Source: Spirosoma profusum
GTDB lineage: Bacteria; Bacteroidota; Bacteroidia; Cytophagales; Spirosomataceae
Assembly: GCF_014699005.1 (NCBI RefSeq)
Contig: NZ_JACWZY010000002.1
Coordinates: forward strand, 496,001 to 560,000
Direction of reading: 5' to 3'
DNA: 64,000 bases
A model generated the notes under the pieces. That model had not been told where the DNA came from. It ran no database searches and worked only from the letters and a program-made list of their open reading frames with translations. Shown in pieces: positions 3,883-58,677 of this stretch. Within the stretch, counting starts at the first letter, position 1; every line of letters starts with the position of its first letter. The position numbers and the translations under genes are program-made.

Positions 3883-4149
3883 ATGCAGAACGAACGAAAC
3901 GACCGTGGTGCGACTTATTTCTATGGTTTGCCCTATCATGAGCAACTCAATCTGGTCTGGCAGCGGGGGATGCTGATTGAAGCCCGACGAATTCCGGGTT
4001 TCTGGTTGCATCTATACGCGGTCAATACGTTTTTTGTGGAGATGTGGGTTTGCCAGCGTCGGTACGATGTTACGTTGGTGAGAGTGCTCAGTAATACCGA
4101 TGAGTTGGAGCCGTATATTGACAAAATTTCGCTAAAAGAACTGGTGTAG
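3883..4149 (+). CDS. Small hypothetical protein (88 aa)
   Basis: I do not recognise a family. The 88-residue product is rich in aromatic residues, has a normal composition for a folded cytoplasmic protein, and ends in an acidic segment (DELEPYIDKISLKELV). It has no signal peptide and no clear membrane helix. The ATG lies three bases after the DUF1684 stop, which argues for co-translation with that gene. The final base of its TAG stop is also the first base of a long inverted repeat. Confidence 0.6.
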   Translation: MQNERNDRGATYFYGLPYHEQLNLVWQRGMLIEARRIPGFWLHLYAVNTFFVEMWVCQRRYDVTLVRVLSNTDELEPYIDKISLKELV

Positions 4150-4235
4150 GCCCCGACAGGCTCCGGCTGTCGGAGTTGCGGCAGCAAATGCTAGAGAAGC
4201 TGTATTATAGCTGACAGCCAGAGCCTGTCAGGGCC
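4149..4235. repeat. Dispersed long inverted repeat, family B copy 2
   Basis: The left arm at 4149-4172 (GGCCCCGACAGGCTCCGGCT and on) pairs with 4212-4235 with a few mismatches. It belongs to the same family as 2738-2824 and 27116-27197. It starts on the last base of the preceding stop codon and fills most of the gap to the aminotransferase gene at 4251. Confidence 0.8.
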
Positions 4236-10836: not shown

Positions 10837-12333
10837 ATGAAAAAAATAATAAAACCTCTCTGCATTGCACTCGCGCTATTTATGGCGCAGGCCTGCACCG
10901 ACGATTTTGAAAAAATAAATACGCCACCCACCTCCGTTACGTCCATTGACCCCGGATTGGTACTGTCGAAAGTACAACGGGATGCGGCTTTTTCGGAAGG
11001 ATTTGAATACCCGAATAACCAGTTTGGTTCGTGGGTGCAACAGTGGGCGGGGGGCGTTCTGATTTCGAGTTCGCGCTATATCCAACAGGCTGATACCGAT
11101 CTGTGGGCCAGCCAATACGTTTATATCCGGAACATCACACAGATACGTAACCAGTTGTTAAAAGGGCTCGAAAGCGACCCGCGCGGACGTACCAAACTGG
11201 CCATCGCCCGGATTGTTGAAATAGCTCTTTGGCAGCGACTGACCGATCTGTTCGGCGACGTACCATATTCGCAAACGGCGCTGGGCACCGAAAATGTGAA
11301 TAATCAGCCTGTTTTCGATACGCAGGAATCGATCTATAAGTCGCTGATTACGACGCTCGATGCAGCTATTGCCCAACTCAATGCCAGTGATGCCAGCTAC
11401 GGAACCGCCGATTTTTATTACAAAGGCGACGTAACGAAATGGAAAAAGTACGGCAATTCGCTGAAACTTCGTCTGGGTATGCGCGCCCGTTATGGCGATC
11501 CCACGCTGGCGCAGAAAACCGTGACTGAAGCCATGGGCCAGCCGTTGCTGGAATCGAACGCTGATAACGCGGCTATTCCGACGTATAACGATGCCACTAA
11601 CGCCAACGTCCATCCAGTGTTGAACCACTGGCTGGCTGGTAGCCCGGACTTAAAATATCTGGCTGATACGTTTGTGAACCAGTTGGTTACCACAAATGAT
11701 CCGCGCCTTCCTGCTTTGGTCCAACCGACGGTTAATTCGGTAAAAGCGGGCAAACCAGCTTACAAGGGTATTGGTGTGGCGCTGACGGATGCGCTGCTCA
11801 AAACCATTATTAAGGACGATTATTCGACGGCTTCGCAGGCTACGTTCTTCAACAAGGCATACAATCCGCCCATTCCGTGCGTGCAGATGACCTTTGCCGA
11901 TGTGAGTTTCTATAAAGCCGAAGCTGCGCTTGAGGGCTGGGGTGCTACGTCTGACCAGGCTGAGAAGTTTTATCAGGATGGCGTAAAAGCGGCTATGTCG
12001 ATGGCTCCTTACAACGTAACAACCATTCCTGCTACGTATGGCGAACTGTCGTTTACGGGTTTGACGAAGGAGCAGAAACTAGAGAAAATCGGTACGCAGA
12101 AATGGATTCAGTTGTTCGGACGCTCTTATGAAGCCTTTATCGAATGGCGTCGGATGGGTTATCCAAAACTGACGCCCGGTCCAAACGCTGGTTCGACTAA
12201 CGGGCAGATTCCGCGTCGGGCTGTTTATTCCACGCAGGAAGCGTTGCTGAATAAACCCAATTACGATGCCGCCGTGGGACGTTTGCCAAGTGGCGATACG
12301 TACCTGAGCAAAGTTTGGTGGGATAAACGGTAG
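10837..12333 (+). CDS. SusD/RagB-like nutrient-binding outer-membrane lipoprotein
   Basis: The 498-residue protein is the surface-exposed lid of the SusC/SusD uptake complex. It has a lipoprotein signal peptide with the modified cysteine at C20 (AQAC) and an acidic stretch just after it (TDDFEKINTPPT), as expected for surface export in Bacteroidota. The body is helix-rich with TPR-like repeats and fits the SusD_2 branch (for example ALWQRLTDLFGDVPYSQTAL near 128-147 and FIEWRRMGYPKL near 432-443). It lies directly downstream of the receptor gene. The ligand cannot be read from sequence. A long hairpin and a separate intrinsic terminator follow. Confidence 0.9.
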   Translation: MKKIIKPLCIALALFMAQACTDDFEKINTPPTSVTSIDPGLVLSKVQRDAAFSEGFEYPNNQFGSWVQQWAGGVLISSSRYIQQADTDLWASQYVYIRNITQIRNQLLKGLESDPRGRTKLAIARIVEIALWQRLTDLFGDVPYSQTALGTENVNNQPVFDTQESIYKSLITTLDAAIAQLNASDASYGTADFYYKGDVTKWKKYGNSLKLRLGMRARYGDPTLAQKTVTEAMGQPLLESNADNAAIPTYNDATNANVHPVLNHWLAGSPDLKYLADTFVNQLVTTNDPRLPALVQPTVNSVKAGKPAYKGIGVALTDALLKTIIKDDYSTASQATFFNKAYNPPIPCVQMTFADVSFYKAEAALEGWGATSDQAEKFYQDGVKAAMSMAPYNVTTIPATYGELSFTGLTKEQKLEKIGTQKWIQLFGRSYEAFIEWRRMGYPKLTPGPNAGSTNGQIPRRAVYSTQEALLNKPNYDAAVGRLPSGDTYLSKVWWDKR

Positions 12334-12336
12334 ACG

Positions 12337-12417
12337 GTAAGGAATTCAGGGGCGAACATGACGTATGCCATTACTTGGAGTAATGGCATACGTCATGTTC
12401 GCCCCTGAATTCTTTAC
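12337..12417. repeat. Near-perfect 37-bp inverted repeat, family C copy 1
   Basis: Arms 12337-12373 and 12381-12417 pair with one mismatch around the 7-base loop CTTGGAG. The inner 33 bases (starting ACGTATGCCATTA) are the same as in the element at 51128-51202 except for one loop base, whereas the outer arms are unrelated in sequence yet still complementary to each other. It begins 3 bases after the SusD stop. Confidence 0.92.
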
Positions 12418-12421
12418 TCAA

Positions 12422-12460
12422 CAGAACCGCACCGGTAACCCAGTGCGGTTCTGTTTTTTT
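12422..12460 (+). terminator. Intrinsic terminator of the SusC/SusD operon
   Basis: An 11-bp stem (CAGAACCGCAC / GTGCGGTTCTG) with a 10-base loop is followed by seven T's. It follows the family C hairpin immediately, so the operon ends in two stacked hairpins. Confidence 0.88.
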
Positions 12461-18617: not shown

Positions 18618-18709
18618 TTTTTGTCATTCTGACGCAGGAAGAATTTTAACGCATCCTAACTAGAACGTAAGGAAACACTGAGATTCTTCCTGCGTCAGAA
18701 TGACAAAAA
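18618..18709. repeat. Family A palindromic element (27-bp arms)
   Basis: Arms 18618-18644 (TTTTTGTCATTCTGACGCAG and on) and 18683-18709 are complementary. The tips TTTTTGTCAT/ATGACAAAAA are shared by the elements at 35053, 38321, 47140, 49927 and 58531. The loop resembles that at 47140 (GCATCCTAAC and AAGGAAAC in both). Confidence 0.85.
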
Positions 18710-27115: not shown

Positions 27116-27197
27116 GGCTCCGACAGGCTCCGGCTGTCGGTTGTAGTTACCAGGTTAGTCGCTGTCGGAGTCGCGACAGCCGGAGCCTGTCAGGGCC
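27116..27197. repeat. Dispersed long inverted repeat, family B copy 3
   Basis: GACAGGCTCCGGCTGTCG at the left pairs with CGACAGCCGGAGCCTGTC at the right, with imperfect outer ends. It is the same family as 2738-2824 and 4149-4235 and starts 4 bases after the phosphatase stop. An extra internal copy of CTGTCGGAGTCG lies in the loop. Confidence 0.8.
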
Positions 27198-35052: not shown

Positions 35053-35146
35053 ATTTTTGTCATGCTGACGAAGGAAGCATCTTAATATACCCTAACGTTC
35101 GTGTCATGATGCTTTAAGATGCTTCCTTCGTCAGCATGACAAAAAT
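35053..35146. repeat. Family A palindromic element, orientation 1
   Basis: Perfect 33-bp arms 35053-35085 and 35114-35146 (tips ATTTTTGTCATGCTGACGAA) surround a 28-base loop. The element at 38321-38410 is its inverted copy, with one difference in the loop. Confidence 0.92.
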
Positions 35147-38320: not shown

Positions 38321-38410
38321 TTTTGTCATGCTGACGAAGGAAGCATCTTAAAGCATCATGACACGAACGTTAGGATATATTAAGATGCTTCCTTCGTCAG
38401 CATGACAAAA
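38321..38410. repeat. Family A palindromic element, orientation 2
   Basis: Arms 38321-38351 and 38380-38410 (31 bp, perfect) begin TTTTGTCATGCTGACGAAGG. The loop is the reverse complement of the loop at 35086-35113 with one base different, so the two elements are inverted copies 3.2 kb apart. Confidence 0.92.
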
Positions 38411-47108: not shown

Positions 47109-47143
47109 AAGGCTGTCTAATAAAATTATAGACGGCCTTTTTT
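47109..47143 (+). terminator. Intrinsic terminator of the TonB receptor/DUF4249/MG2 operon
   Basis: AAGGCTGTCTA pairs with TAGACGGCCTT (one G-T pair) over a 9-base loop and is followed by a T-run. The T-run is also the tip of the family A element that follows. Confidence 0.75.
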
Positions 47144-47229
47144 GTCATGCTGAGGAACGAAGCATCTTGAAGCATCCTAACATTCAAATAAGGAAACCTT
47201 AAGATGCTTCGTTCCTCAGTATGACAAAA
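47140..47229. repeat. Family A palindromic element
   Basis: Arms 47140-47168 (TTTTGTCATGCTGAGGAACG and on) and 47201-47229 pair with one mismatch. Loop similar to that at 18645-18682. It sits between the operon terminator and the GH106 gene. Confidence 0.88.
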
Positions 47230-49926: not shown

Positions 49927-49972
49927 GTTTTTGTCATGCCGCTTCGGCGGTCCGACTCAGCATGACAAAAAC
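49927..49972. repeat. Short family A-like element
   Basis: The tips GTTTTTGTCATGC (49927-49939) and GCATGACAAAAAC (49960-49972) match the family A ends. The centre differs and holds its own small hairpin (CCGCTTCGGCGG). It appears to be a minimal version of the element. Confidence 0.7.
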
Positions 49973-51121: not shown

Positions 51122-51127
51122 CCTGAT

Positions 51128-51202
51128 AAGCGTATAACGAAGCGCGGTACGTATGCCATTATTTGGAGTAATGGCATACGTACCGCGCTTCGTTATACGC
51201 TT
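51128..51202. repeat. Perfect 34-bp inverted repeat, family C copy 2
   Basis: Arms 51128-51161 and 51169-51202 are perfectly complementary around the loop TTTGGAG. The inner 33 bases match family C copy 1 (12337-12417) except for one loop base, but the outer 21 bases (AAGCGTATAACGAAGCGCGG and on) are unrelated to the outer arm there. It lies between convergent stops at 51121 and 51208. Confidence 0.92.
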
Positions 51203-51207
51203 GTCAA

Positions 51208-58530: not shown

Positions 58531-58650
58531 TTTTGTCATGTTGACCGGGCCGCCGGAGCGGGAACGAAGCATCTTTAAGTTTCTTCACTCTCAGGTTTGG
58601 ATACGTTAGGATGCTTCGTTCCCGCTCCGGCGGCCCGGTCAACATGACAA
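58531..58650. repeat. Family A palindromic element with extended GC-rich arms
   Basis: The left arm 58531-58573 (TTTTGTCATGTTGACCGGGC and on) pairs with 58610-58650. The tips fit family A, but an extra GC-rich block (CCGCCGGAGCGGGAACG) lengthens the stem to about 41 bp. It ends 28 bases before the esterase ATG. Confidence 0.85.
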
Positions 58651-58677
58651 ATAAAAATTATTAACTCTTTTTCTAAA

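Follow-up and report, generated by a model that had tools for sequence, protein, structure and literature searches.

A dispersed Spirosoma palindrome family at gene 3' ends, with a conserved apex and outer arms probably renewed by template switching

Introduction

Two long hairpins in one bacterial genome share the same centre and have outer arms that differ from one hairpin to the other, each arm being complementary to its own partner. How can one centre come to stand between such different, paired arms? The hairpins lie in the window, by which we mean the whole stretch of 64,000 nucleotides of Spirosoma profusum that was analysed here. A sequence-only reading of the window had offered two answers, namely that the arms were formed locally around a mobile core, by inverted duplication or template switching, or that the core inserts at the centre of existing palindromes.

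The locus touches a wider question that is open, which is whether stems are kept paired by template switching of DNA or by selection on single mutations. Homogenisation of arms together with inversion of the spacer has been described as a signature of template switching (PMC8604942; PMC8794818), and the authors who published evidence that template switching maintains stems themselves called it circumstantial (PMC8794818). The reading that we prefer, with a probability of roughly 0.6, is that the hairpins belong to a family placed at gene 3' ends, with an apex under selection and a resident core around which template switching renews the outer arms.

Results

Structure of the two window hairpins

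Two near-perfect hairpins with a common 33-base centre were borne out by the analysis, and their centres differ at one base (C/T). The first description of their limits and pairing was right in giving hairpin 1 a single arm pair that is not Watson-Crick, which is G.T, while hairpin 2 proved longer than 51128-51202 and includes an extra T.G pair at 51127/51203 (Table 1). Both are among the longest inverted repeats in the window, their predicted folds have energies of about -70 kcal/mol (z = -16 to -18 against shuffled sequences), and a Markov-1 randomised sequence of 200 kb held no hairpin with a comparable score. No further occurrence of the core was found in the window, and a search of the window against Rfam 15 gave no family match above the gathering score. 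The stop codon of a SusD-like gene (10837-12333) lies 3 nt before the left arm of hairpin 1, and hairpin 2 occupies the whole spacer between two convergent genes, leaving gaps of 2 and 1 nt.

Other repeats were observed in the window as well. One family, TTTTGTCATGCTGA...GAAGCATCTTAA, consists of dispersed palindromes with differing middle parts, and an inverted repeat, GGCCCCGACAGGCTC...GGCTGTCGG, is present in three copies (Table 1).

Table 1. Coordinates of the hairpins and of other palindromes (window positions unless a genome and contig are given)
Feature	Position	Strand	Remark
Hairpin 1	12337..12417	.	39 pairs, triloop TGG, one G.T arm pair (12341/12413)
Hairpin 1, conserved core (apex)	12361..12393	.	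ACGTATGCCATTACTTGGAGTAATGGCATACGT
Hairpin 1, left outer arm	12337..12360	.	
Hairpin 1, right outer arm	12394..12417	.	
Separate hairpin with T-run, directly 3' of hairpin 1	12420..12455	+	looks like a conventional terminator
Hairpin 2	51124..51206	.	about 40 pairs
Hairpin 2, conserved core	51149..51181	.	ACGTATGCCATTATTTGGAGTAATGGCATACGT
Hairpin 2, left outer arm	51124..51148	.	resembles arm of copy G000:C22:40449
Hairpin 2, right outer arm	51182..51206	.	
TTTTGTCATGCTGA...GAAGCATCTTAA copies	18618-18709, 35053-35146, 38321-38410, 47140-47229, 49927-49972, 58532-58651		
GGCCCCGACAGGCTC...GGCTGTCGG copies	2738-2824, 4149-4235, 27116-27197		
Second-family loci, G001	G001:C1:6918658-6918738 (L241); G001:C1:7331426-7331515 (L261)		
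Second-family loci, G018	G018:C1:9769846-9769912 (L248); G018:C1:9881617-9881696 (L254)		

The core defines a dispersed family

The window hairpins are members of a dispersed Spirosoma palindrome family. A search at up to 3 mismatches found about 19 copies of the core in the window's genome; the relatives G007, G012 and G016 have about five to nine each, and most other Spirosoma genomes have zero or few weak matches, so that the family is patchy among species. Its consensus, GWATGCCATTAC-loop-GTAATGGCATWC, is a palindromic apex that pairs down to a short loop with varying bases, and the conserved apex amounts to 13 bp plus this small loop. Exact core hairpins were found in 11 stretches among 84,980 species genomes, 7 of them from Spirosoma, and the four others, from distant groups, look like chance matches. 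As far as the literature searched goes, the family is apparently undescribed.

An assembly artefact was rejected as the source of the family, because the single-contig genomes G007 and G016 have copies. The draft assembly of the window's genome seems to break at the core hairpin: contig C20 begins inside a copy (G000:C20:1-49), and the same core hairpin is found near the start of contig C61 (G000:C61:205-253). DNA uptake sequence pairs were rejected on copy number, only 18 exact half-sites being present genome-wide, mostly within the hairpins.

The expectation that copies elsewhere would also have complementary flanks held in part, since outer arms of at least 8 bp were present in 31 of the 50 copies compared and arms of less than 8 bp in the other 19; complementary outer arms are common, not obligatory. 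In the 31 copies with the longer arms 540 of 546 arm pairs were Watson-Crick and 3 were G.T, values that are somewhat inflated because the arm ends were defined by pairing. The arms of the two window hairpins had been called unrelated, and they are indeed unlike one another, but each hairpin has a similar-armed relative elsewhere in the genome. The best two of 210 pairwise arm comparisons each matched a window hairpin with another copy of the same genome, the 51128 arm resembling that of G000:C22:40449 (P about 0.0005) and the 12337 arm that of G000:C22:339221 (P about 0.002), both values being per pair and uncorrected for the 210 comparisons. The idea that the arms are themselves conserved repeats is therefore true to the extent that some arms are common to several copies. 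Since some paralogous copies have similar arms, arms can also travel with the element; probably some dispersal took the arms along, and afterwards the copies diverged with joint changes in both arms.

The core is kept at orthologous loci where the arms differ

At L120 (G007) and L127 (G012), the genes on both sides are orthologues (protein identities of 95% and 90%) and the core lies at the same place, between arms that are long and perfect in both species and dissimilar between the two. In the trio L206 (G007), L125 (G012) and L110 (G016) the core lies behind one and the same gene in all three species; the arms are 11-13 bp long at L206, where they end exactly at both stop codons, nearly absent at L125 and about 2-4 bp long at L110. 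A further orthologous pair, with the core behind the same gene, is formed by L098 of this genome and L122 of G012. As the core is kept while arms differ or are absent at these three sets of loci, it is the arms that change and the core that is resident. The loci thus speak for an old core, selected at these places, around which arms were formed or lost. The conserved apex is probably under selection, because it is retained there.

These loci bear on the suggestion that a mobile core inserts at new sites and that an inverted duplication of the flank is made at the moment of insertion. Such a process would agree with one core between different arms at many loci, with the patchy species distribution and with the existence of armless copies. 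However, species have the core in common at orthologous loci with arms that differ or are absent, so the arms were not fixed at insertion; some paralogues have arms in common, and neither an empty site nor a linked Y1 transposase was found. We consider duplication at insertion highly unlikely. Mobility of the core, as assumed by the sequence-only reading, is indirectly suggested by its many loci and patchy distribution, but neither an empty site in a relative nor a target-site duplication was found for this core, and no transposase is linked to it. At the hairpin 2 locus, the galM orthologues in the genus have no core behind them and their neighbours differ, so that no empty site can be read for hairpin 2. 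Matches to PF01797 (RAYT/Y1 transposase) in seven genomes had no core nearby, and the sole PF01797 match of G007, a genome with many core copies, is broken. A REP/RAYT element was rejected, as no core lies beside any PF01797 match in the seven genomes.

Insertion into the middle of hairpins or terminators that were already there, which would make the outer arms the remains of an older palindrome, has precedents. Insertion sequences are known to target the centres of REP palindromes (PMC1525189), and a second family in G001 and G018, GTGCCACGGTT-loop-AACCGTGGCAC, which is likewise built of a conserved apex with varied outer arms, was seen to do the same (Table 1). This second family has empty sites, whole hairpins being present in one sister and absent from the other, and one insertion is accompanied by a likely 9-bp direct repeat, TAGTCAATA/TGGTCAATA. 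One G018 insertion sits in the loop of a hairpin that is intact in G001, and one G001 insertion sits inside a 23-bp hairpin of G018; the two insertions within the sister's hairpins directly support insertion into existing palindromes, for the GTGCCACGGTT/AACCGTGGCAC family only. The same claim is unsupported for the core of the window hairpins, which stays at orthologous loci while the arms vary between species at one locus, and the armless copies have no outer palindrome. We therefore give insertion into palindromes very little credence as the origin of the window arms, and prefer renewal of the arms around a resident core.

Copies lie at gene ends

The neighbours of 45 copies, with ORFs called by a simple script and not by a gene finder, placed 32 copies between convergent genes, 12 in tandem spacers and one between divergent genes, and the convergent share of 32/45 compares with 16% among the gene pairs of the genus sample (P 3e-16). 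The distance from the centre of a copy to the stop codon has a median of 41 nt, and the arm ends typically lie within about 15 nt of the stop codon and overlap with it in some copies. From this position, a role of the family at 3' ends is likely, and the two window hairpins may have such a function as well. The palindromic core means that the same stem would be present in RNA transcribed from either side.

Next to the stem, T makes up 49% of the bases on the two outward strands in copies from other genomes, against 29% (P 3e-13), and T4 is present on both sides in 9 copies from other species, whereas no such enrichment is seen for the copies in this genome, the window pair included (27% vs 30%). 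A terminator role is not supported for the window copies, because they are without a T-tract and hairpin 1 has its own terminator-like hairpin behind it. In several copies (e.g. L124, L108, L211, L112 and L123) the arms remain complementary for 6-20 bp past the T-tract, which marks the predicted transcript end, and a terminator would not need pairing beyond it.

The location also bears on the view that a dimeric protein binds the core as duplex DNA, the long arms being incidental. A core that is palindromic, conserved in sequence, variable at its centre and retained at orthologous loci would suit such a site, but the copies lie at 3' ends and not at promoters, and a binding site has no need of complementary arms. 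We regard this view as very doubtful. It is compatible with the template-switch half of the preferred account, since the arms may be purely mutational.

Compensated changes and loop inversions in sister species

Core-family orthologues are only about 80% identical, with the result that their intergenic sequence is saturated, except for two decayed copies (L200/L205) in G001/G018. Because the core family has no close sister orthologues, the mutation process was examined on other hairpins of the genus, using two independent sister pairs. These were G001/G018, about 93% identical and compared over 400 kb of each genome, and G025/G035, 94% identical at one gene and compared over 200 kb of each genome. 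From the two pairs 44 well-aligned orthologous hairpins were taken, and 6 hairpins in which >40% of the pairs differed were excluded as replaced or impossible to align. The 44 hairpins held 49 double changes that stayed Watson-Crick, 19 of them transversions, together with 3 double changes that did not and 58 one-sided changes; independent arms would give 11.5 double changes of any kind, and a control with the partner slid by 1-3 bases gave 9-15. Five of 28 changed loops were exact reverse complements (TGAT->ATCA, CAA->TTG, AAACTC->GAGTTT, TTAAT->ATTAA and CTCA->TGAG), and none of the 28 was an exact reverse or an exact complement. Compensated changes with exact loop inversions are the signature of template-switch (quasipalindrome) mutation, a mechanism that is already known and shows with unusual clarity in this genus.

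Selection of point changes could, in principle, also account for the compensated changes. The hairpins would then be ordinary gene-end RNA structures, with successive compensating point mutations fixed by selection and no special mutation process. This agrees with the place of the copies at gene ends between convergent genes, with the T-tracts flanking copies outside this genome, with the 58 one-sided changes in the sister pairs and with the compensatory evolution shown by intrinsic terminators of Bacillus cereus (PMC5381666). Against it, the 19 transversions among the 49 compensated changes have no wobble intermediate, G.T is rare in the arms (3/546), loops are inverted exactly, and arm complementarity continues past the T-tract. 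Selection on point mutations is in our view unlikely as the full explanation, and template switching around the resident core is preferred.

Related changes were observed at other hairpins of the genus. At one locus of G006/G009, compensated arm changes occur with an apparent loop inversion. The gene to the left of the L120 hairpin was compared at its 3' end in 30 Spirosoma loci (L169-L198), at least 13 of which have a hairpin at or overlapping the stop codon. As a rule the sequences of these hairpins are unrelated, and often they are of low complexity, which looks like wholesale replacement of hairpins at a single site. A conserved gene (L183, L188 and L195) is followed, after its stop codon, by a AAAGAGTGAAAGAGCG-armed hairpin with a loop of about 19 bases; compared with G020 and G027, G004 has this loop inverted.

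Discussion

In the account that we prefer, the conserved apex would be kept by selection, and the stem common to the transcripts from both sides would be comparable to a bidirectional terminator or to a stabiliser of mRNA 3' ends. During replication, the growing strand would fold back at the strong apex and copy its own arm, or alternatively jump to the other strand. One arm would thereby be rewritten as the complement of the other, and arms could be extended, replaced and kept complementary. For the core family template switching is suggested because the arms are pure and complementary past the T-tract, and we infer that the same process made the arms of both window copies. Local formation of arms around a mobile core, as first proposed, thus survives as template switching around a resident core, by analogy with other hairpins of the genus and with orthologues where the core was kept and the arms changed.

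A more specific and rather improbable extension is that hairpin-primed copying is unusually active at Spirosoma gene ends and keeps rebuilding terminator-like hairpins, with a conserved apex recognised by a factor nucleating the fold-back and the arms arising as a by-product of the renewal. The gene-end hairpins of Spirosoma offer many natural cases in sister species, with compensated transversions, exact inversions of the loop, and gain or loss of arms about a centre that stays the same. An apex that is conserved and arms that change freely separate the share of selection (apex) from that of mutation (arms), and the genus looks a good natural test case.

The RNA genes studied by Monttinen and Loytynoja (PNAS 2022, PMC8794818) resemble the present hairpins in their multi-base compensatory changes, in perfect stems made or repaired by copying one arm off the other and in loop inversions as the signature of the interstrand form. 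Loop inversions are very rare there, whereas in the bacterial gene-end hairpins 5/28 changed loops were exactly inverted. Quasipalindrome correction (van Noort 2003, cited in PMC10434271; yeast, PMC8604942) likewise combines arm homogenisation with spacer inversion; in Spirosoma the process would be centred on an apex that is conserved and repeated at the 3' ends of genes, within a single bacterial genus. REP/REPIN elements with their RAYT transposase (PMC3116915, PMC3733652) are also short, dispersed, intergenic palindromes, but the present family has no linked RAYT gene, a copy number of about 5-20 and locus-specific outer arms. Bidirectional intrinsic terminators (Kingsford 2007, PMC1852404; PMC5381666) are alike in location, in the stem-loop and, for copies of other species, in T-tracts on both strands. 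The Spirosoma family differs from them in an apex sequence that is conserved between loci and not GC-rich, in arms that pair past the T-tract and in window copies without T-tracts.
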